Shown one piece after another: positions 142 through 19,494 of a stretch of 26,062 nucleotides of DNA. A program made the position numbers and the translations under genes. Where the stretch lies: the IMG/VR virus record IMGVR_UViG_3300044949_001780, positions 1-26,062 of that record, one strand, 5' to 3'. Each line of letters starts with the position of its first letter. Position 1 is the first letter of the stretch. The notes under the pieces were generated by a model. The model had not been told where the DNA came from. It was given only the letters and a program-made list of their open reading frames with translations, and made no database searches. The stretch comes from a virus.

Positions 142-1550
142 TAGCTGGCCCTCCTGCTAGGCAGCGCCACTTTCAACCCGGCGCCTGCAACCGTGGCGCC
201 AATCTGCGTGCAGTGGAAGCTGACCGATGACCCTAGGGCGAATGTGTAGCCGCTCGAAATGAAGGCCGCCGAGAACACCGCGGGCGTGGCTGCTGTGGCG
301 GTGCTGATCTCGGTGGCGTCAATGGTCGGCAGGGTGGCGAAGATCGATGTTCCGCCAATCCGGATGTCGAACTGTGCCACGCTGCCGGTTGGGGCAGTGT
401 TGACCATGAAGATCGGAAGCGCCGTCAGCACTCGCGTTTCCGGCCAGTAAGGCACGGTGACCAGGGTCGCATTCGTCAGGTTCACCGCTTCCCCGGTAAG
501 CGGGATCACAAGCGTGCTCAGCGCCCGCAGCACAGTTCCATCGATCAGCAGCGCGCTATCGGTGCTCAGATGGGTCAGGCTGCCTGCTGAATCGTCCCAG
601 AACAGGATCCGATCGCCGCCAGGGTCATCAGCCCCGAGCACCTGGCCGGACATGCCCAGCACTCCCGACACACTGGCCCCGAGGGTGACCGGATCATGCA
701 CGCTGGCCAGCGGGGCATAGGCTGAACTCCCCTCGGCTGGCGTCAGGTAGCCAGGGTGAGGATCAGCGGCTGCAGCGTGCATCGCCACTGCAGCCGCGGC
801 CGTGCCGGTCGGATCAGCGCCAACGTCTCCAGCGGCTAGGGTCTTGTTCTTCCACTGGCCATCAGCAGCCAACGCCAGGACCTGCCCGGTTGCTGCGCCG
901 CTGATCAGCACGTCATGCAGTTCTTCCAGCTCCTGGCCATTGATCACATTGACGTAGAGAATCCCGCTAGTGCCTGGCCCTTGCTTGATGCAAAAGCCCA
1001 TAAACACACCATGGGCTGGTTGTGTCGGTCGCGTTGATGTAAGCTGTCCGGCTGTTTCGCTCAGCCATGTAATCTGCCCCTCTGTCAGCAGTGGAGTGGT
1101 GACTCCTGCTAGAAGTCCATGGGTGATAACTATGCCGTCGCTGTTGTGCGCGGCGGTTGCATACATCAGTCCTATAGTCCGCGCCGCTGTTGCCTCGGTA
1201 GATGCGTCTGCCGCCGCGACAGTTGGACTAGTGCCAGAGCTTCCAGTCACATAGACCGCCGTGCCAATCGCCAGGGCTCCCCCGCTGTTGTTGCGCACAG
1301 CCAGCAACGTAGGGACCGGCGCACCTATCGCAACCTTGCCGGCCAGAGCCGTGGCCGTCGCCGTGCTGATCGGCTTGTTCGCGTCGCTGGTGTTGTCGAC
1401 GTTCGACAGACCTACCGTCGTCTTCGTCGCCAGGCCAGCAATAGCAGAGGCCGCGGCATCAACTGTGACGCCGGCCTGATCCATTGGCACCCGTTCGGTG
1501 CCGGTCAGCGCTGCTGCGTTGGGTAGACCTGTGATCGTAACGTCTGCCAT
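141..1550 (-). CDS. Phage fibre-like structural protein (head or tail fibre)
   Basis: This 469-aa protein is very rich in Ala, Thr, Ser and Gly, as fibrous virion proteins are. Residues about 45-62 (GLSNVDNTSDANKPIS) match a motif that recurs in many phage tail-fibre proteins. A second segment (HAAAADPHPGYLTP, about residue 258 onward) is also typical of fibre shafts. The C-terminal about 120 residues look like a separate beta-rich domain. The start ATG at 1550 has an AAGGA ribosome-binding site and lies 4 nt after the stop of the head-tail joining gene. The position right after head-completion genes, with no tail tube or tape-measure gene in between, makes a capsid (head) fibre as possible as a tail fibre. 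Adhesion or receptor binding is inferred; the exact virion location is unknown. Confidence 0.7.
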   Translation of the reverse strand: MADVTITGLPNAAALTGTERVPMDQAGVTVDAAASAIAGLATKTTVGLSNVDNTSDANKPISTATATALAGKVAIGAPVPTLLAVRNNSGGALAIGTAVYVTGSSGTSPTVAAADASTEATAARTIGLMYATAAHNSDGIVITHGLLAGVTTPLLTEGQITWLSETAGQLTSTRPTQPAHGVFMGFCIKQGPGTSGILYVNVINGQELEELHDVLISGAATGQVLALAADGQWKNKTLAAGDVGADPTGTAAAAVAMHAAAADPHPGYLTPAEGSSAYAPLASVHDPVTLGASVSGVLGMSGQVLGADDPGGDRILFWDDSAGSLTHLSTDSALLIDGTVLRALSTLVIPLTGEAVNLTNATLVTVPYWPETRVLTALPIFMVNTAPTGSVAQFDIRIGGTSIFATLPTIDATEISTATAATPAVFSAAFISSGYTFALGSSVSFHCTQIGATVAGAGLKVALPSRRAS

Positions 1551-1554
1551 GTCC

Positions 1555-2217
1555 TTAGGTTAGGGTGATCAGATTGCGACCATCGAGCGTCACCAGGTGC
1601 AGACCGCTCAGCGTGGTCAGATAGGTAAAGCCCTCCACCTTCGCCAGCGGCACCCGACACAATGCGCCATCATCAAACAGCATAGGCTGTTGTTCGGCTT
1701 TGTAGTTGCTACCATCTACAGTAATTGAATCGCCGTAGTTCAATCCACCGAATAGCTGTGTTGGCACGGTCAGCAGGTAGTCGATCATCACCACCTCCCC
1801 GCCCATCACAACCTCGCTGTCTACGTCTAGGATACCCACCCCCGACGTTGCGCCGGCTGTGACGGGAACGCCGAACCCCTGCAGATCCAGGAAGACCGAC
1901 AGATCATCCTTGCCCAGGATCGGGATACCATCGGGCCTGGACAGTTGGATGGTGCAGAATGCGCCATCATCCAACCGCGATGGCTCGCGCTCGACCGTAT
2001 AGCTATTGCCGTCAACTACGATGGCATCGCCATACTTCAGGTTGCCGAACAATGCAGTTTGCACCGTTAGCACATAGCGGATCATCACGGCATCGCTGCC
2101 GAGGATCATCTCGCTGTTTGCATCAGGGATCCCCACGCCAGAAACGGCCCCGGCTGTCACACTGACGCCGGGGCCGCTAAGGTCGAGGAAGGCCGTCAGG
2201 TCCTCGGCAAAGGCCAT
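1555..2217 (-). CDS. Head-tail joining protein, two tandem gpFII-like domains
   Basis: The 220-aa product consists of two copies of one domain of about 97 residues (1-97 and 98-194), followed by a short tail of about 25 residues. By eye roughly half of the aligned positions are identical, including VTAGA.SGVGI, VMI.Y.LTV, LFG.L.YGD and the DDGA segment. Each copy has the layout of the lambda gpFII family: a start such as MAF.EDL..FLD, then a beta strand pattern ending in GD.I.VDG..Y. These proteins cap the head connector and provide the tail attachment surface. Normal family members are about 100-120 aa with one domain, so this is a duplicated form. The ATG overlaps the stop of the preceding 55-aa gene by one base. 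Position after the capsid gene fits the assignment; the family is inferred from pattern. Confidence 0.65.
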   Translation of the reverse strand: MAFAEDLTAFLDLSGPGVSVTAGAVSGVGIPDANSEMILGSDAVMIRYVLTVQTALFGNLKYGDAIVVDGNSYTVEREPSRLDDGAFCTIQLSRPDGIPILGKDDLSVFLDLQGFGVPVTAGATSGVGILDVDSEVVMGGEVVMIDYLLTVPTQLFGGLNYGDSITVDGSNYKAEQQPMLFDDGALCRVPLAKVEGFTYLTTLSGLHLVTLDGRNLITLT

Positions 2218-6987: not shown

Positions 6988-8874
6988 TCAGGAGAACCGG
7001 CCACTCGCCGCAAACCTGGTCCCCTCGGCAGTCGCGGGCTGGTTGTCGGTGGCTAGCTGCGCCTCAAGCTGGTCCCACATCGTGGCCGGGTTCCTCGATC
7101 TGGCGAACAGCAGCAGCGCAGCGTAGGCGTACCGCGTGCAGTCGCCTCCTTCGTCGTGCTCACCCTGCGGAAGGGTCCAGTCGTACTGCGTGAAGCCCTT
7201 AACCATTCGCGCCTTGCGCTTCCACGGGAACAGCTCCGCTACGAACTGATCCGTTGCAGCCTCCCCTAGGTGCAGGTACCCCGGCCCCGGTACGTCATTC
7301 CGTAGCCGGCCCTGCAGGTGGGAGATGCTGGTATCAGTCCCGATCAGATACAGCAACACTGCCCGCTTGCGCATCGGCTGGTTCTTCCGGTTCACGTCAA
7401 CCGGTGAACCCTTGCCCACGATGGCCTTACCTCGCTGGCTGCTGCCTTTCACTGGAATCCACCTCTGCCGTGTCCGGCAGTAATCCCTCACCCGATGGGT
7501 TGCCATGCCACCATCATCAATGGCACCCTGCGCGATCACCAGCTCTCGGCCATCATCCCGCCGCCAACGGGTTTCACTGATCCGGTCCAGCTGCTCCCAC
7601 ACCTCGTCTGCCTGAGGGTCGCCGTGGATCTCGAAGTGCCCCAGATGCCACGCTTCCTCACCGCGGCCCCAGCCCCATAGCGTCACCACCAACCGCTCGC
7701 CAACCGATCCGCCGCCGCCCTGCACATCGACGCCGGCCGTGATCACCAGCACCCCAGCAGGCACGCTGCCCACCGGATAGCCGTTGCCGGCTGCCGTGTC
7801 CTGCCTGCGCTTCGTCAACCCCTCGGCATTGAACGCATTCTCGATCGCATCGCGCCATGCCTCAGCCGCCCGCTTGTTGATCCACCCCTTCAGCAGCAGC
7901 CGATCGTTCTGTGCCCTGACGAACTGATCCCGGATCTCGCCCCAGCTGATCCAGCCCAGTGGCGCATACCACCCAGGCAGGTGGAATCCTGCCGTCATGC
8001 CATCACCTGCAGCGCTAGGAACCCAGATCCCACCCGGCAGGAAACGGGCCTTGTGCCGTTCCTCGAAACGCTCGCCACAGTGGACACACTCATAGAGCAC
8101 CTCATCATCGGGCCGGTCCCACTTGAACTGAGGCCACACCAGCCGTTGCCGCTCACCACATGCCGGGCACGGCACATGGTACCGCCGCTGATCTGATCGA
8201 GCTTCGAACTCCTTCGTAACCCGGCACGCCTCAGCATCGCCAGGCGTACTGGTGATCAGCGTCTTCCCCCTCGGGAAGTTGGCGGTCCTTGCCTCGAAGT
8301 TCTCGAGCGGGTCGCCCTTATCATCCACCTCCATCGGGTAGCTGCTCACCTCATCCGCGAACAGGTTCGCCGCCGGCATCGACTGCGCAGCGCTGCCGCT
8401 GTTCGCACCGGTCAGCACGAATAACCCGCCGGGGAACAGCTTCAGAAACGCCGTGTTGCCGCTGTCCCGCGACCGCGGCGGAGGGATCCGCTCAGCGATC
8501 ACCGGCGTATCCCTGATGAACGGCTCCAGGCGCTGGCGGTTCAACCGCTTGGCCATCTCGATCGTGGGCTGCACCAGCAACGTCGGGGCCGGCCGCCAGT
8601 GGATCACATACCCCAGCCAGTTCAGGCCCGCTTCGGTCTTCCCCAGCTGGCTGCCGAACATCAGCACAACTCGCCTGGTGCGGCTGCTAGCGCTCAGCTC
8701 GCGCATCGGTTCCCTCAGGTATGGCGTCCGGTCCGTCCGCCATGGCCCCGGTTCCGGGCAGCCGATCCCACCCAGCACCCGGTAGGCATCGGCCCACTCG
8801 TCCACCGTGCCCAGCCGCTCCGGTCGCAGGCCATCACAGAACGCCTGCCGGTAGATCACCGCCGCGTCAGCCAT
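6988..8874 (-). CDS. Terminase large subunit, GpA family
   Basis: This 628-aa packaging motor subunit binds the portal and couples ATP hydrolysis to DNA translocation; its C-terminal nuclease cuts concatemers. The ATPase has a Walker A-like GSQLGKTE (74-81) and Walker B LFADE (171-175), followed by a coupling motif (ITSTPGD, 207-213). A zinc ribbon typical of GpA-type enzymes follows (CPACG 236-240 and CVHCG 263-267). The nuclease half starts with AGVDVQ (Asp383), then AIDDGG (451-456) and a late acidic HDEGGD segment. The start overlaps the small-subunit gene by 8 nt. Length is close to lambda gpA (641 aa). The GpA family fits a cos-type packaging mechanism, though no cos site is proven here. 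Confidence 0.93.
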   Translation of the reverse strand: MADAAVIYRQAFCDGLRPERLGTVDEWADAYRVLGGIGCPEPGPWRTDRTPYLREPMRELSASSRTRRVVLMFGSQLGKTEAGLNWLGYVIHWRPAPTLLVQPTIEMAKRLNRQRLEPFIRDTPVIAERIPPPRSRDSGNTAFLKLFPGGLFVLTGANSGSAAQSMPAANLFADEVSSYPMEVDDKGDPLENFEARTANFPRGKTLITSTPGDAEACRVTKEFEARSDQRRYHVPCPACGERQRLVWPQFKWDRPDDEVLYECVHCGERFEERHKARFLPGGIWVPSAAGDGMTAGFHLPGWYAPLGWISWGEIRDQFVRAQNDRLLLKGWINKRAAEAWRDAIENAFNAEGLTKRRQDTAAGNGYPVGSVPAGVLVITAGVDVQGGGGSVGERLVVTLWGWGRGEEAWHLGHFEIHGDPQADEVWEQLDRISETRWRRDDGRELVIAQGAIDDGGMATHRVRDYCRTRQRWIPVKGSSQRGKAIVGKGSPVDVNRKNQPMRKRAVLLYLIGTDTSISHLQGRLRNDVPGPGYLHLGEAATDQFVAELFPWKRKARMVKGFTQYDWTLPQGEHDEGGDCTRYAYAALLLFARSRNPATMWDQLEAQLATDNQPATAEGTRFAASGRFS

Positions 8875-10903: not shown

Positions 10904-11124
10904 CGGTGGCCTCCCCAGCTGAGACGCTGGAAGTTGTCGGGTGCGCTGCGGCCACGGTGGAGGGGAGGCCCCCAGCCGCCAAGGGGCTGAAGGGAGACGA
11001 GGCTAGTCCCTAGGCCTGGAGTGACGCGATAGCGGCGCCCGTTGGGTGCTAGCCATACGTCATTCAGGCGGAAGCGATCGGCTGGTGGTGCCCCGTGGTC
11101 TAGGGCAGTGAAGGGATCGATCAC
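10900..11124 (-). CDS. Small protein of unknown function (74 aa)
   Basis: The product starts MIDPFTALDHGAPP and has a likely small beta-barrel core (DVWLAPNGRRYRVTPG). The start is GTG at 11124, overlapping the TGA of the upstream gene (GTGA). The stop TAG overlaps the ATA start proposed for the next gene. The C-terminal part is basic (HRGRSAPDNFQRLSWGGHR) and encodes the GGGGAGG sequence that serves the next gene as ribosome-binding site. I do not recognise a family; its membership in the coupled chain is the main support. Confidence 0.55.
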   Translation of the reverse strand: MIDPFTALDHGAPPADRFRLNDVWLAPNGRRYRVTPGLGTSLVSLQPLGGWGPPLHRGRSAPDNFQRLSWGGHR

Positions 11125-11384
11125 GGCTCAACCCACTGGGCTAGATCACACGGTCTAGCAGTGGTTGGGATTTTCGAGCAGTCGCCCCGCAGGCCGGAGC
11201 AGTTGCCCGACAGGCCGGAGCAGTTGCCCCGCAGGCCGGAGCAGTTGCCCCACAGGTTGGTGCAGTCGCCCCACAGGCCGGAGCAGTCGCCCAACAGGTT
11301 TGGGTTTGGGCCGGTATTTTTTGTATTATCCAAAAACCAATAAAGGGTTAGTTTGGTAATGCGTTTAAATGGATACTGGTTCAT
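11121..11384 (-). CDS. Heptapeptide-repeat protein, G(D/N)C(S/T)GLx repeats
   Basis: The 87-aa product has a basic N-terminal segment (MNQYPFKRITKLTLYWF), then six tandem 7-residue repeats from about residue 31 to 70, each of the form G-(D/N)-C-(S/T)-(G/N)-L-x, and a short C-terminus ending in AQWVEP. The repeats are encoded by six 21-bp units (11177-11302). Such repeats are expected to stack as a small beta-helix, with the Leu and Cys residues facing inward. I recall similar Leu/Gly/Asp repeats in phage proteins of unknown role. Cysteines at the same place in every repeat could form a ladder. The ATG overlaps the preceding stop (ATGA). Function is unknown. Confidence 0.6.
   Translation of the reverse strand: MNQYPFKRITKLTLYWFLDNTKNTGPNPNLLGDCSGLWGDCTNLWGNCSGLRGNCSGLSGNCSGLRGDCSKIPTTARPCDLAQWVEP
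11177..11302 (-). repeat. Six tandem 21-bp repeats coding for heptapeptides
   Basis: Six units of 21 bp run end to end (unit starts 11177, 11198, 11219, 11240, 11261, 11282). They share a core CCGGAGCAG and an A-CAGG end, and differ mainly at bases that change the variable residue. The period is a multiple of three, so copy-number change would keep the frame. Confidence 0.85.
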
Positions 11385-12134: not shown

Positions 12135-12854
12135 CTAGAACGGCGGGGGCTCGCGGTTCCATGTGCGCCAGGTGGCCCATGCCGCGGCCCATGCTGTGAG
12201 GCACTCAGAGCGGCCGTAGAGGCCGCTGAAGGTGGTTTGGCCTGGCCTGGCCCATAAGGTCTGCCCGAAGTCATACCAAAGGCCGTGGGAGGCCTCCAGG
12301 GCCATGTAGCCGCCGAGCTGGGCGGCGGTGCTGTAGGTGCTGCCGTTGGGCCCGAGGCTCTTGAGATCGGCCAGCACGCGGGCCGGCCCGGTGACGCCGG
12401 CGGGGCGGCCTGGGGGGAGGGGCAGGGCCGGATCCAGGTGGGCGCAGTCGAACGTTCCGGCGACGCGCCGCCGGACGCAACAGGTGGGCCGCTCGCTGGC
12501 GATCACCTCGATCTGGCTCCAGCGATCGTGGGACAGCAGGGGGCCGATCCAGTCGGCATAGGGGCCCTGCTCCAGATCGTGGAGCTCTCTCAGGTCAGCT
12601 GGGGTGAATGGCACATGCTCGCTGTAGCGGCCTGCTAGCCACAGCTCCAGCGCCCGATGGCAGCCGTTGCCGCGGGGTTTCCAGGTGGCGCGGGTGGCCT
12701 CGATGCGATCCATGGCGTAGTCGGACTTCAGGACGGACAGGACGCCGGTGACGGAGACGGGGAAGTCCATCTTCCCGAGGTAGTAGCGGTGCTCCGGGTC
12801 GCGGCGATGAAGGCCTGGGATGGGCGGGAGCCAGGTGGCAGCGGTGCTGGTCAT
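12135..12854 (-). CDS. PD-(D/E)XK nuclease, RecB/Cas4-like
   Basis: The 239-aa product shows the residues of the RecB/Cas4/exonuclease VIII type nuclease fold: GNGCHRALELWL with His66, AGTFDCAH with Asp136, LADLKSLG with Asp163 and Lys165, and AQLGGYMA (Gln179, Tyr183). These residues hold the two metal ions and cut DNA ends. In phages such proteins work in recombination or end processing, often beside an annealing protein or SSB. Here the primase-helicase lies upstream across a repeat-rich gap, and an SSB-like gene is present further right. The start ATG at 12854 follows a 320-bp gene-free stretch, so this gene probably has its own promoter there. Ends 64 bp before the small membrane peptide gene. 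Confidence 0.75.
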   Translation of the reverse strand: MTSTAATWLPPIPGLHRRDPEHRYYLGKMDFPVSVTGVLSVLKSDYAMDRIEATRATWKPRGNGCHRALELWLAGRYSEHVPFTPADLRELHDLEQGPYADWIGPLLSHDRWSQIEVIASERPTCCVRRRVAGTFDCAHLDPALPLPPGRPAGVTGPARVLADLKSLGPNGSTYSTAAQLGGYMALEASHGLWYDFGQTLWARPGQTTFSGLYGRSECLTAWAAAWATWRTWNREPPPF

Positions 12855-13174
12855 GGTTGGCGGCTGGGGGGGGGGGGTACTACCAAAGGGCGGGAATCGG
12901 GAAAAATTCCGGCAGACGCCTTACGGCGCAAGGCTTCTCAGGGTTTGGAAATCGGGAATTCAGCGGGAAAAGCGGGAAAACGGGCGGGATCCATCGAAAG
13001 CAGCTGGGTGTGTGGCTCCGGATCCATTCCCGCGAATTCCCGCGATTCCCGCGAATTCCCGCCGAATTCCCGATTTCCAATCCGCCAAACCCCTTGCACT
13101 GCAAGGTATTACAAGAAAAAATTCCCGATTCCTTCTTTCTTTAGGGGGGGAGAGTGTGGGGCTGTGGTTGGGTT
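12855..13174. other. Gene-free repeat-rich region, candidate replication origin
   Basis: This 320-bp stretch holds at least ten copies of the hexamer CGGGAA or its complement. The left half has CGGGAA at 12891, 12898, 12953, 12964 and 12973; the right half has TTCCCG at 13027, 13037, 13046, 13056, 13067 and 13122. The run at 13027-13072 is spaced 10, 9, 10 and 11 bp, about one helical turn. A tract AAGAAAAAATTCCCGATTCC and a following TTCTTTCTTT give the most AT-rich part. A run of 12 G lies at 12866-12877. The region follows the primase-helicase gene. A role as origin is inferred from iteron-like structure and context; no coding frame is convincing. Confidence 0.5.
12945..13080. repeat. Perfect 17-bp inverted repeat flanking the motif array
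   Basis: TTGGAAATCGGGAATTC at 12945-12961 is the exact reverse complement of GAATTCCCGATTTCCAA at 13064-13080. After one mismatch the similarity continues inward for 7 more bases (GCGGGAA/TTCCCGC). The 102-bp spacer holds further CGGGAA and TTCCCG copies, so the whole unit could extrude as a cruciform. Confidence 0.8.
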
Positions 13175-15412
13175 TCATGTGACCCATGGGTTGGCGGCCC
13201 CCTGCTTGATGAGAGTGAGAGCCCTTCGGCCCTTGTTGGTCAGCTTCCAGGCGGTTCCTGCCTTGGCGACCAGGCCGCGCTTGCGTAGCCATGTGAGGTT
13301 GTTGCGGATGGTGCTCTCGGAGACGCCGAACAGCTCGGTTACGATCAGAGGCGTCTGGGTCGGCAGTCCGCCTGCCAGGCGAAGCTCCAGGCAGTCGAGG
13401 ATGTCCGTCCGGGCGTTTCCGGTGATCTCGCCTTTTGTCACTTCGAAGCCGTCTTCTGTGAGTCGGTAGGTGAACTCTCGAGACTGGCTGCCCCGGAGCT
13501 TGTGAACCGACCACTCGTTGACGGGCCCGCGTTCACTGACGGTGCGGGTCAGCTGGTGAACGCCTGAGGGGATCTGGTTGATGTTCTGGCTTCCTGCGGC
13601 GGCCTGCAGCCCCTTCCCTGCCGCCTTGCCGCCTGTGGGGTGGTGGAGCCAAAGGAGCGAGCAATGGCGGCCCACAAGGGCTTGCAGGAACCGCAGCAGT
13701 GTTCCGACGGGGCCGATACCGAAATTGATGCCGGCCAGCTCCAGCACCGCCTTAAGGGAATCGATCACCACCAGGGCATAGCCGCCCTGCTCCAGCTCTT
13801 CCTTTAGCTCCATCAGCCCGCGAGGTGAGCAAGACCAGGCGGGCACCTTGTCGCTGCCTTCAGCGGTCCAGATCGTGAACCCGTCGATCACGTCGGGATC
13901 GTCAGCGACGCCTAGATCCTCCAGGTATTCGGCGACCATGGCGCGGGCACCCTCGCCGCCATCGCTGCCGATCCAAAGGATCCGGCCGGTCCGATCGGGA
14001 GTGATCTGCTGATCTAGGAACGGCTGGCCCTTGATGATCGACACACCCATAGCCGCGGCTGCCAGGGTCTTACCGGAGCCACCGGCACCGAAGAGCACGT
14101 GATCCCGACGCCAGAGCAGGAAACCGGTGAGGAGGTCTTCTGCTGGTGAGTCGAGGGGATCGGCGATGGAACGACCGCGCCGTGCGCCGGCATGGCCAAC
14201 CGCAAGGGGCAGCCCCCAGCGTTCCGCCAAGGCGTGCATCAGGCGATCATCGATTGCGTCACCACGAACGCCAAGGTTCCATAGCTCCGCGCGGGCGGCC
14301 TGCTGCTTTGCCCAGGGGTCGCCTGGATCGAGGTGGAGGTCTAGGAGGTGATCCAGGAGGTTCTGGATCTGCTGATCACGGGGCAGCTCCTGCGGCTGCT
14401 GGGGCGTGGCGTCAGGAGTGACTGGCGGCGCCTGGTGGTTGTTGGAGGCGCCGCCTGGGGGCTTTCCCCGCAGATCGTGGCGCTTGATGTCAATGCCGAA
14501 TTGATCGCGAAGGAATGGCCAGGTACTGCCGGGGCTGATCCCGCTGGGGGGGGAGACGAAATAGGCGTCTAGGTCGTTGATCTGGGAGGCGCAGGTTTCG
14601 CGGAGGATGTTGATTGCCTCCTGTTTGCCCAGGTCAACAAGCAGCCGCCGCGCGAGGCCTAGGAGCAGTGGGTACTGTCCCTGCTGTGGCACGAACGGCG
14701 GCACCTGCTGGAGCGCCTCGCGGAACATCCACAACGGCCTAGGGGGAAGGTCGGAGGCGTCCCGTAGGGGAATACCCTCAAACGGTGCAGCTGCGGGCTG
14801 TGGGGCGGGATCCGGGGCAGGTTGAGGAATGGCAGCTAGCCAGGCCTCTATCTCTTCCACGTCGTAGCGATTGGCGGTACTCGAGTGGATAAGCGACTGC
14901 CCCGAGGGTTTTCCGTCGGGGCCGATGTAGAAGGCGCCAGGGAGGCGCATCACCCGCGACGGGTTGCGGTTGACCGGATCGGCGCCGGTAACGGCGATCA
15001 GAGCGGCCTGGATCGGCAGCCAGCGATCAGGGGGGATCGGTTCGGTGAGCACCCAATAGAGGTGGGCGGACTTGCCGCCGGTGGTGATCGAGATGGTCGG
15101 CTCACCCAGCCCGTAGTGCTGCCAAGCGGAGAGCTGCCAAGGAACGGGCCGGTTGTCCCATTCCAGGAAGAAGGCGCGGCAGGCGGTGATCTGAGAGTCG
15201 GTATCGCCGCCGTCGTTGATGACGAGGTAGACGCCGCGGCCGTCCTGCTGCCAGCGGCTGGCGGCGGCAAGGTCATAGGTGCCCTTGCGTGCCTTGATGC
15301 TGTTGGAGTTCTTGCGATGGGGGAAACCGCGAAGGCGAGCGGTTGCGGGATCCTTGCCTAGGAGGGCAAGGAACCGATCCGCCTCGGCCGCATCAATGGG
15401 AGAGGTGCTCAT
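13175..15412 (-). CDS. Primase-helicase replication protein (RepB-type primase + AAA/RecA helicase + winged helix)
   Basis: The 745-aa protein has three parts. Residues about 25-195 look like a RepB/AEP-type primase: YLVINDGGDTDSQITACRA, FLEWDN (82-87), the TTGGKSAHLYWVL segment (110-122) and NPSRVMRLPGAFY (150-162). Residues about 410-640 are a RecA-like helicase domain with Walker A GAGGSGKT (442-449), Walker B ALVVIDS (546-552) and a LLWLHHPTGGKA segment (587-597). The last about 55 residues form a winged helix (VTELFGVSESTIRNNLTWL, 691-709). It would start and unwind at the replication origin and make primers. The start overlaps the ribbon-helix-helix gene stop (ATGA). Similar fused proteins occur in phages and plasmids. 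A dedicated origin in the 320-bp gap downstream is likely but unproven. Confidence 0.8.
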   Translation of the reverse strand: MSTSPIDAAEADRFLALLGKDPATARLRGFPHRKNSNSIKARKGTYDLAAASRWQQDGRGVYLVINDGGDTDSQITACRAFFLEWDNRPVPWQLSAWQHYGLGEPTISITTGGKSAHLYWVLTEPIPPDRWLPIQAALIAVTGADPVNRNPSRVMRLPGAFYIGPDGKPSGQSLIHSSTANRYDVEEIEAWLAAIPQPAPDPAPQPAAAPFEGIPLRDASDLPPRPLWMFREALQQVPPFVPQQGQYPLLLGLARRLLVDLGKQEAINILRETCASQINDLDAYFVSPPSGISPGSTWPFLRDQFGIDIKRHDLRGKPPGGASNNHQAPPVTPDATPQQPQELPRDQQIQNLLDHLLDLHLDPGDPWAKQQAARAELWNLGVRGDAIDDRLMHALAERWGLPLAVGHAGARRGRSIADPLDSPAEDLLTGFLLWRRDHVLFGAGGSGKTLAAAAMGVSIIKGQPFLDQQITPDRTGRILWIGSDGGEGARAMVAEYLEDLGVADDPDVIDGFTIWTAEGSDKVPAWSCSPRGLMELKEELEQGGYALVVIDSLKAVLELAGINFGIGPVGTLLRFLQALVGRHCSLLWLHHPTGGKAAGKGLQAAAGSQNINQIPSGVHQLTRTVSERGPVNEWSVHKLRGSQSREFTYRLTEDGFEVTKGEITGNARTDILDCLELRLAGGLPTQTPLIVTELFGVSESTIRNNLTWLRKRGLVAKAGTAWKLTNKGRRALTLIKQGAANPWVT

Positions 15413-15585
15413 CGGGGCCGCGCCTGCTGATCAGCGGCCTGTTCGGCCTGCATGAAGGCCTCGATGGCGAGGATGATGATTGCGTTGATCGCGAGACCGC
15501 GGGCCGTGCGCTGCTGGCGAAGCCAGGCGAGCTGAGCGGCTGTGGGTCGAATGGAGATCGGATGGCGGCTAGGCGGTGAGGCCAT
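15409..15585 (-). CDS. Ribbon-helix-helix DNA-binding protein (58 aa)
   Basis: The product shows a short beta strand (HPISIRPTAAQLAWL) and two helices (AQLAWLRQQRTARG, LAINAIIILAIEAF), the layout of CopG/Arc-type dimeric repressors. I chose ATG 15585; an earlier GTG-type extension to 15609 adds only eight residues and has no ribosome-binding site. It is the first gene of the minus replication operon, facing a plus-strand operon across about 100 bp, so it could control both promoters. The stop overlaps the primase-helicase start (ATGA). Confidence 0.6.
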   Translation of the reverse strand: MASPPSRHPISIRPTAAQLAWLRQQRTARGLAINAIIILAIEAFMQAEQAADQQARPR

Positions 15586-15681
15586 GGCGGGCTGCAGTGG
15601 CTCCGCCAATGTAGCCGCAGAGGTTCTGATCTGCTACGGTGAGCAGGAAGCGCCGCCGAGGCGCCTGCCCCCTGTCACACC
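15586..15681. promoter_or_regulatory. Divergent promoter region between the two operons
   Basis: This 96-bp gap separates the minus replication operon from the plus pentapeptide genes, so it must hold start sites for both. On the plus strand TGCTACGGT (15632-15640) looks like an extended -10, without a good -35. On the minus strand TACATT (15613-15608) is a possible -10. Both are weak by eye; the divergent layout is the stronger evidence. Confidence 0.35.
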
Positions 15682-16152
15682 ATGGACTCGGTTCATCTAC
15701 CGGCCATCCTGGCCAGTCATGCCAAGTGGCTGGCTAATGAGGATGGAGGCGAGCGCGCCAACCTGCGCAACGCCGACCTGACCGACGCCAAGCTGATCGA
15801 CGCCAACCTGTTCGGAGCCGACCTGACCGGAGCCGACCTGACCGGCGCCGACCTGACCGACGCCAAGCTAATCGGCGCCGACCTGACCGACGCCAAGCTG
15901 ATTGACGCCAACCTGTTCGGAGCCGACCTGACCGGAGCCGACCTGACCGGCGCCGACCTGTTCGGCGCCAAGCTGATCGGCGCCAAGCTGTTCGGCGCCA
16001 AGCTGATCGGCGCCAAGCTGATCGGCGCCAACCTGACCGGCGCCGACCTGTTCGGCGCCAAGCTGTTCGGCGCCAACCTGAGCGGCGTCAACCTGACAGG
16101 CGCCAACCTGGCCGGCGCGGTCGGCCTGTCGCCAGATGTCAAGCCAGCTTGA
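15682..16152 (+). CDS. Pentapeptide-repeat protein A (156 aa)
   Basis: Residues about 25-146 consist of tandem A(D/N/K)LxG-type pentapeptides (for example ADLTGADLTGADLTDAKL), which build a right-handed quadrilateral beta-helix. The N-terminal segment ([19 protein letters not shown]) is a typical start for such proteins in cyanobacteria and phages, and the C-terminus [12 protein letters not shown] may cap the helix. Members of the family such as Qnr and MfpA mimic DNA and bind gyrase; this role is possible here but not shown. The leader CTGTCACACCATG is also found before the next gene. The two genes are clearly paralogues in tandem. A 15-bp DNA period underlies the repeats. Confidence 0.9.
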   Translation: MDSVHLPAILASHAKWLANEDGGERANLRNADLTDAKLIDANLFGADLTGADLTGADLTDAKLIGADLTDAKLIDANLFGADLTGADLTGADLFGAKLIGAKLFGAKLIGAKLIGANLTGADLFGAKLFGANLSGVNLTGANLAGAVGLSPDVKPA

Positions 16153-16171
16153 GCCCCCTTTCTGTCACACC

Positions 16172-16486
16172 ATGAACTCGATTGATCTATTGGCCGTCCT
16201 TGCTAGCCATGCCAAGTGGCTGGCTAGTGAGGATGGCGGCGAGCGCGCCAACCTGATTGGCGCCGACCTGTTCGGCGCCAACCTGTTCGGCGCCAACCTG
16301 TTCGGCGCCAACCTGGCCGGCGCCAACCTGGCCGGCGTCAACTTGCGCAACGCCGACCTGGCCAGCGCCGACCTGTTCGGCGCCAAGCTGTTCCGCGCCA
16401 ACCTGAGCCGCGCCGACCTGAGCGGCGCCAACTTGACCGGCGCGGTCGGCCTGTCGCCGGATGTCAAGCCGACCCAATCTGCATAA
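16172..16486 (+). CDS. Pentapeptide-repeat protein B (104 aa)
   Basis: This is a shorter paralogue of the preceding gene. It starts [20 protein letters not shown] and shares the DGGERANL stretch, the pentapeptides ([18 protein letters not shown]), and the C-terminal [11 protein letters not shown] chose ATG 16172 because the CTGTCACACC leader before it is the same as before gene A; an upstream in-frame extension to 16136 lies over the end of gene A. There are fewer coils than in A, so copy number of repeats has changed between them. Function is likely the same type of protein-protein or DNA-mimic role; target unknown. Confidence 0.88.
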
Positions 16487-18981: not shown

Positions 18982-19494
18982 ATGCGACTCCCAGACCATG
19001 AGATCCGCCGGCTGTGTGAGGCTGGCATGATTGCACCATTTGAACCGGCATTGATCAATCCTGCTTCGCTTGATGTGAGGCTAGGGGATAGCCTGCTGAT
19101 CGAATCGGCAGAGTCTCCAGAGATGGTGCCGTATCCATTGGCAGACCACAGCAGGGAACGCCCGTATCTGCTGGTGCCGGGGCAGTTCGTGCTAGCTCAG
19201 ACGGTGGAGACGTTCAACATACCGGATGATATATCGGCTCAGTTCATGCTGAAGAGTAGCCGAGCACGCGAGGGGTTGCAGCATCTAATGGCTGGCTACT
19301 GTGATCCAGGATGGCATGGTTCAGTATTGACGCTGGAGCTGGAGAATGTGCGTCAGCTTCATCCTGTGAGGCTATGGCCTGGGATGAAGATAGGTCAGAT
19401 CGTGTTTACCAGAATGGAATCAGCGCCAGAGCGATCGTATGCCGTGACTGGCAGGTATAACGGCGACGCCACCGTTCAGGGTTCGAAGGGCTGA
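18982..19494 (+). CDS. dcd: dCTP deaminase
   Basis: The 170-aa enzyme deaminates dCTP to dUTP; some members also split dUTP to dUMP. Family motifs are in order: LINPASLDVRLG (24-35), FMLKSSRAREGL (88-99), AGYCDPGWHGS (104-114), TLELEN with catalytic Glu119, GMKIGQIVF (134-142) and the C-terminal QGSKG (166-170). The SSRAR segment and the Glu fit a dCTP deaminase rather than a plain dUTPase. In a phage, the enzyme would feed dTMP synthesis or change nucleotide pools during DNA replication. Length is normal for the family. It is 2 nt after the previous gene and 3 nt before the next, so it is co-transcribed. Confidence 0.85.
   Translation: MRLPDHEIRRLCEAGMIAPFEPALINPASLDVRLGDSLLIESAESPEMVPYPLADHSRERPYLLVPGQFVLAQTVETFNIPDDISAQFMLKSSRAREGLQHLMAGYCDPGWHGSVLTLELENVRQLHPVRLWPGMKIGQIVFTRMESAPERSYAVTGRYNGDATVQGSKG

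Follow-up and report, generated by a model that had tools for sequence, protein, structure and literature searches.

A two-armed hexamer array behind a primase-helicase gene as a probable replication origin of a cyanophage

The region at 12855-13174 of the window is proposed to be a cyanophage replication origin that is read by the C-terminal winged helix of the adjacent primase-helicase. The window is the whole stretch of virus DNA analysed, 26,062 nucleotides (IMG/VR record IMGVR_UViG_3300044949_001780, positions 1 to 26,062). From sequence comparison, we give this reading a probability of roughly 0.8. What the sequences themselves show is how the array is built, that it is conserved, that it is always linked to the helicase gene and that its hexamer covaries with one residue of the recognition helix. 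The features of the region are as follows.

12855..13174, no strand: proposed origin region, complete; the whole 320-bp intergenic gap between the primase-helicase gene and an exonuclease-like gene
12866..12877, plus: bounding poly-G tract of 12 G, the longest G run in the window
12891..12896, plus: outermost left CGGGAA hexamer
12898..12903, plus: outer left CGGGAA hexamer, exactly 55 bp to the first inner hexamer (12953)
12919..12933, no strand: dyad CCTTACGGCGCAAGG in the left 55-bp spacer, CCTTGC..GCAAGG type
12945..12961, plus: perfect 17-bp inverted repeat, left arm TTGGAAATCGGGAATTC
12953..12978, plus: left inner iterons, CGGGAA at 12953, 12964 and 12973, 11 and 9 bp apart
12991..13026, no strand: central segment between the arms, 61% GC
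13027..13072, minus: right inner iterons, TTCCCG at 13027, 13037, 13046, 13056 and 13067, spacings 10, 9, 10 and 11 bp
13064..13080, minus: perfect 17-bp inverted repeat, right arm GAATTCCCGATTTCCAA
13092..13106, no strand: dyad CCTTGCACTGCAAGG in the right 55-bp spacer, CCTTGC..GCAAGG type
13105..13121, no strand: A+T-rich element, in helicase sense TTTTTTCTTGTAATACC, beside the outer hexamer; candidate melting site
13122..13127, minus: outer right hexamer; the last inner one (13067) is exactly 55 bp away
13144..13150, plus: bounding poly-G tract of 7 G

The initial annotation had described five CGGGAA copies on the left and six TTCCCG copies on the right pointing to a centre near 13013, and the exact positions bore this out: eleven exact hexamers lie within 237 bp, five forward and then six reverse, and the mirror centre of the long inverted repeat falls at about 13012.5. 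Its statements that five right-hand copies stand about one turn apart, that a perfect 17-bp inverted repeat surrounds the core and that the region lies behind the primase-helicase gene (the gap adjoins 13175-15412, minus strand) were likewise confirmed. The 55-bp outer spacing, an extra degenerate left copy (CGGGAT, 12985-12990), the spacer dyads and the poly-G bounds were absent from it.

When the 320-bp region was shuffled 2000 times with dinucleotides preserved, the mean count of CGGGAA was 0.82 and the maximum was 6. Outside the region, any 240-bp stretch of the window held at most one copy. The hexamer orientation was perfectly segregated, and the convergent order has a chance of 1/462 given five and six copies. 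The dyad of the right spacer keeps a TTGnnnTG-like core in aligned relatives, and the A+T-rich element is the AT-richest 16-mer in most relatives. Poly-C or poly-G tracts of variable length flank the array in most close relatives. The tract length was 11-14 among near-identical phages (L025, L032, L029 and L011 inspected), and whether the far bounding tract was C-type or G-type depended on the clade.

The 17-bp repeat is part of a 51-bp inverted repeat of 78% identity (12919-12969 / 13056-13106). The region could be read as a structured stem-loop of RNA or DNA, either a pRN1-style origin or an RNA regulator, in which the long repeat matters and the hexamers do not. The window strand indeed folds as DNA far better than its shuffles (z -7.9), and the pRN1 origin needs an intact stem-loop (PMC4234260). 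However, the folding excess in relatives ranged from z -0.5 to -10 and was small in L057, L058 and L059. Consensus folding gave 18 pairs with a covariation term of only -0.43, and the spacer pairs were often broken. Rfam returned only miRNA models far below their gathering scores, a trivial effect of the inverted repeat. The conserved features are the hexamers and their spacings, not the pairing, and we regard a stem-loop function as very unlikely.

The genes around the array, and the part of the primase-helicase that is predicted to contact DNA, are listed below.

12135..12854, minus: exonuclease-like gene (PHROG 298), downstream; not constant beside the array
13175..15412, minus: primase-helicase, 745 aa; S-2L-like AEP primase, AAA_25 RecA-fold helicase and C-terminal winged helix; proposed initiator
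13280..13318, minus: predicted recognition-helix codons (aa 699-711), including Ser700, the residue that switches with the hexamer class
15409..15609, minus: ribbon-helix-helix (RHH)-like protein, 66 aa, overlapping the primase-helicase start; likely operon repressor

The helicase domain was assigned to AAA_25 by Pfam, and a fold search with it returned RecA-fold ATPases. Among the top matches was the RSF1010 RepA helicase (1olo; E 8e-6, 20% identity), the query model having a mean pLDDT of 69. The winged helix at the C-terminus was modelled by AlphaFold2 with pLDDT about 77-94. No match to the helicase part was found among 50,697 phage records, in which known phages matched the primase end only, and a search of plasmids gave one weak match. 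The window also encodes its own terminase large subunit (6988-8874) and a tail protein. Other frames in the window include a sigma-70 family factor with regions 2 and 3 matched, cut by the contig end (25303-26061), a dCTP deaminase-like gene (18982-19494) and, by eye, pentapeptide-repeat type frames on both sides of the replication genes (11121-11384 and 15682-16486).

The linkage between array and helicase gene was examined from both directions. Helicase-first scans of viral contigs, whose protein or alignment queries do not select for the array, gave 35 hits on overlapping contigs, and the array was found directly behind the gene wherever the sequence extended past the stop codon. An independent scan with the array pattern gave 25 loci, and the helicase gene adjoined the array in 16 of them. 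Many of the loci from these scans are near-identical or share a contig, and about ten distinct sequences underlie them. The nine pattern matches lacking the helicase (e.g. L013, L021, L022) may be chance or unrelated arrays. They include two divergent CGGGAA triplets 268 bp apart in L021 (12-37 and 280-305) and arrays at 3749 in L013 and 4273 in L022.

The geometry of the arms was kept among the relatives. On the helicase-proximal side, outer and inner hexamers were exactly 55 bp apart in all relatives whose outer hexamer is an exact match; the distal distance was 54-56 bp with the sole exception of L004 (63). Inner hexamers were typically spaced 9-12 bp apart with some positions skipped, and the centre varied from 0 to 68 bp. 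With their fixed spacing the arms resemble rigid assembly sites, and the centre, being variable, resembles a free linker. A homologue of 34% identity (L072) showed the 55/11 register again, with CGTGAA as its hexamer. When viral contigs were searched for close relatives of L072, L083 and L068, none were found.

On the other hand, the neighbours of the array were exchanged. The primase domain was of the S-2L-like AEP type in the window, L004, L036 and L057; of the Prim-Pol plus PriCT_2 type in L005, L007, L047, L059 and others; and of a zinc-finger/TOPRIM-like type in the L023 and L025 group (by motif) and in L102 (Pfam-supported). Within the window clade alone, the kind of primase changed at least four times. 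The array layout was retained despite primase exchange, loss of the exonuclease neighbour and a different downstream gene, and the only large part that always accompanied the array was the helicase with its winged helix.

This turnover bears on the possibility that the array controls transcription of the downstream gene, as a promoter/operator or terminator. In the window the exonuclease gene does start right past the array in the same direction. However, the downstream genes are unrelated between clades, and in L070, L071 and L072 the next gene is convergent while the array still stands behind the helicase. A scan for promoters and intrinsic terminators found no such site, and transcription control appears most improbable. 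A packaging (pac/cos) or recombination site was also considered, since packaging proteins can bind repeat arrays and the dyad element recalls recombinase sites. The terminase large-subunit gene, however, lies 4-6 kb off, no tyrosine-integrase match was found in 12 phage contigs, and in the Cyanobiaceae assembly copies the arrays are likewise behind the helicase, so that we give this explanation almost no weight.

An alignment query found five copies of the helicase in Cyanobium and Synechococcus assemblies, and a single-protein scan of genome contigs for host or prophage copies found none. These copies may be prophages, plasmids or contaminating phage. Their presence in the two genera indicates that the hosts are most likely freshwater picocyanobacteria.

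Several short elements were noted beside the arrays. In L060 and L061, additional copies of the spacer element (CTGTTGCAGGGCAGTGGATCTCACGGAATC) precede the array within the first 230 bp past the helicase stop, unaccompanied by hexamer rows. The sequence ATTGNTATGACT was considered as an origin-specific element and dropped; it also occurs by tRNA/integrase sites elsewhere and was thus not used as evidence. The 12-mer ATTGSTATGACT was seen in many arrays across distant homologues, downstream of L007, L008, L023, L025, L016, L067, L130, L137 and L139, and also beside tRNA/integrase sites and at other places in host genomes; it was noted in L142 and L144 too.

As to which protein reads the hexamers, the initial annotation had left both the RHH protein and the primase-helicase open. 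The hexamer itself differs between clades. L047 and L058-L061 have the same array layout with GATGAA and CGTGAA, and distant homologues (27-48% identity; Cyanobiaceae genomes and viral contigs) have other words downstream. These are either of TGA type, namely CGTGAA (L072), GTGAA (L079, L082, L102) and GTGA[TC] (L103-L108), or of GGGA type, namely GGGATT (L070, L071) and GGGAA (L083, L137, L139). The classes were assigned by 4- and 5-mer counts against shuffles together with inspection, L047 being counted in the TGA class because of ATGAA. Enrichment of single words over shuffles was weak in L067, L068, L071, L078 and L140. Downstream of the Q-type homologues (L073, L074, L076, L077) and of four K-type homologues (L132, L134, L136, L138), no such array was found.

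Among 373 comparable alignment columns, one separated the two classes: fragment position 366, which corresponds to Ser700 of the window protein. It had already stood out in a subset, ahead of the full test. This position was Gly in 12/12 rows of the GTGA/ATGAA type, and Ser, Ala, Lys or Asn in 20/20 rows of the GGGA type. In the AlphaFold2 model it is the second residue of helix 365-377 in the C-terminal winged helix. L130 and L131 have the Gly, and no array could be assigned downstream of them. On a tree built from the helicase core alone, leaving out the DNA-binding domain, the array class switched three times, and Gly changed alongside in 3/3. When three of 15 clades were relabelled, a single-residue column in the recognition helix appeared in 4/455 relabellings, the true one included. 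The tree sign test on the hexamer switches gave p 0.25, and it cannot reach significance because there are only three independent switches. The covariation of one residue with the hexamer is thus good but not decisive evidence for the helicase as the reader.

The array might instead be an operator or centromere-like site bound by the RHH protein at the operon head, serving repression, copy control or partition and not initiation. Repeats in inverted or direct orientation, spaced by about one turn, are common targets of RHH proteins, and the RHH-like gene overlaps or precedes the primase-helicase gene in every complete window-clade locus examined, the RTGAA clade included. However, RHH proteins were only 29% identical among CGGGAA holders though the hexamer is invariant, and their outward strand residues varied widely (PSRT, PQRT, TTRT, PPRT, PSST, STRP, PRRA). 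In the same holders, identity was 76% in the helicase core, 93% in the recognition helix and 44% in the preceding part of that domain, indicating that the invariant hexamer probably matches the frozen recognition helix and not the drifting RHH protein. Moreover, the covarying residue sits in the helicase, the array lies at the far 3′ end of the RHH and primase-helicase genes, away from their promoter, and the RHH fold of the 66-aa protein is plausible with modest support. Binding by the RHH protein as the function of the array therefore seems unlikely, and the evidence favours the primase-helicase as binder.

A further protein may read the same hexamers. In L088, a gene close downstream of the primase-helicase (1016-1741, minus strand) encodes a protein in which a KilA-N domain (Pfam E 1e-18) is joined to a winged helix, and genes for KilA-N proteins were also found at L038 4289-5011, L039 4023-4745 and L053 2228-2950. 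The recognition helix of the KilA-N protein, STVRNNVTWLR, matches that of the primase-helicase. It might act as a regulator or as an origin-directed factor, the latter role being comparable to that of ICP1 Odn (PMC8263062).

A mechanism can be proposed from these features. Within each of the two mirror-image arms, hexamers stand in a row at intervals of one helical turn, and an outlying hexamer lies five turns away. On each arm, several protomers would contact the hexamers through their winged helices, all on one DNA face, and the outer hexamer would be brought in by bending over five turns. Each arm could then seed one RecA-fold helicase ring, and the two rings would be oppositely oriented. 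Between the inner and outer sites, the spacer that contains the A+T-rich stretch and the dyad would bend or melt. Given the 61% GC of the centre, melting would most likely start at the A+T-rich stretch 13105-13121. First primers would come from the fused primase, of interchangeable type, and two forks would depart in opposite directions. Repression of the operon, comparable to that by ORF56 in pRN1, is the most likely role of the RHH-like protein. GC-skew minima were no more than about 4 kb away from the array in the window, G007, G009 and G010 and not in G008 and G013, a measure confounded by gene strand.

The proposed system was compared with known ones. In SaPI/PICI elements, the origin directly follows pri-rep on its 3′ side, and its AT-rich region is always bordered by two sets of iterons (PMC6092414). 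A passage of PMC7581432, citing Ubeda et al. 2007, states that the C-terminal domain of SaPI Rep reads the iterons, and the Rep helicase families named there are DUF927 or Primase_Cterm/D5. In both, the origin (here a proposed one) lies immediately 3′ of an initiator-helicase gene, the helicase may carry a fused primase, and short iterons in two sets surround a centre. That the C-terminal domain of the helicase reads the iterons is, for the present system, a prediction from the winged helix and the covariation. However, the centre here has 61% GC in the window and is 0-68 bp long in relatives, with the AT-richest stretch in the spacer of one arm, whereas it is AT-rich in SaPI/PICI. The helicase is a RecA-fold AAA_25 protein and not of DUF927 or D5 type, the arms are inverted with an outer site fixed at 55 bp, and the genome belongs to a tailed phage that encodes structural proteins itself, not to a satellite.

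In pRN1, orf56 and orf904 encode a repressor and a primase-helicase with a C-terminal winged helix, followed downstream by the origin; the helicase is SF3, and the origin is a stem-loop stated not to have iteron structure (PMC4234260). The gene order, with a small putative repressor, a primase-helicase-winged helix protein and a downstream origin, is the same here. In contrast, the helicase here has the AAA_25 RecA fold, and the origin has iterons in fixed register and no consistently conserved stem-loop. By analogy, the system may work like SaPI/PICI and be organised like pRN1. Since it matches neither the AT-rich centre of SaPI/PICI nor the helicase family of SaPI/PICI and pRN1, it is not a member of either.

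Two more systems share parts of this design, as far as they are described within PMC4234260: the phage P4 alpha protein combines primase, helicase and winged-helix origin binding in one polypeptide, and RSF1010 RepA/RepB'/RepC are three separate polypeptides of which RepC reads the iterons. By this description P4 alpha resembles the present protein as a single polypeptide with three functions, and some relatives here have a TOPRIM-like primase. The P4 helicase, generally placed in SF3, differs in family from the one here. RSF1010 is alike in its iteron origin with primase-dependent start, and RepA is among the top fold matches to the helicase domain, but there RepC reads the iterons, whereas here the data favour the winged helix of the helicase itself. 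The PrimPol of cyanophage S-2L (6zp9; PMC8065100) has a homologous N-terminal primase domain (phmmer 7e-34, 39% identity over 182 aa) and no sequence match over the helicase part. In the 360-bp gap downstream of the S-2L PrimPol gene, the sole candidate is a possible CGGGGAA triplet, which is too weak a signal to be claimed.

The idea that this is a new type of phage replication origin thus stood in part. Linkage, geometry and covariation support an origin, but two iteron sets 3′ of an initiator-helicase were already known from SaPI/PICI (PMC6092414), and the gene order from pRN1 (PMC4234260). Judged against the open literature, what is new relative to the closest designs is the RecA-fold helicase, the lack of an AT-rich centre, the register fixed at 55 bp and the occurrence in tailed phages. 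We consider the chances even that phages and chromosomal elements of picocyanobacteria have here an origin class of their own, in which a RecA-fold helicase reads its own two-armed iterons in 55-bp register through a fused winged helix with a one-residue specificity switch, the primase is swapped freely between unrelated superfamilies, and in some phages a KilA-N protein with the same recognition helix acts there too.

To our knowledge, the replication origins of most environmental phages are unknown. For a lineage in which the helicase part matched none of 50,697 phage records, the array and its helicase offer a concrete candidate for the origin and for the initiator, together with a predicted DNA-reading residue. 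They point to replication modules in which the origin-helicase pair is constant while the primase is exchanged, and to origin signatures that would be searchable in metagenomes.
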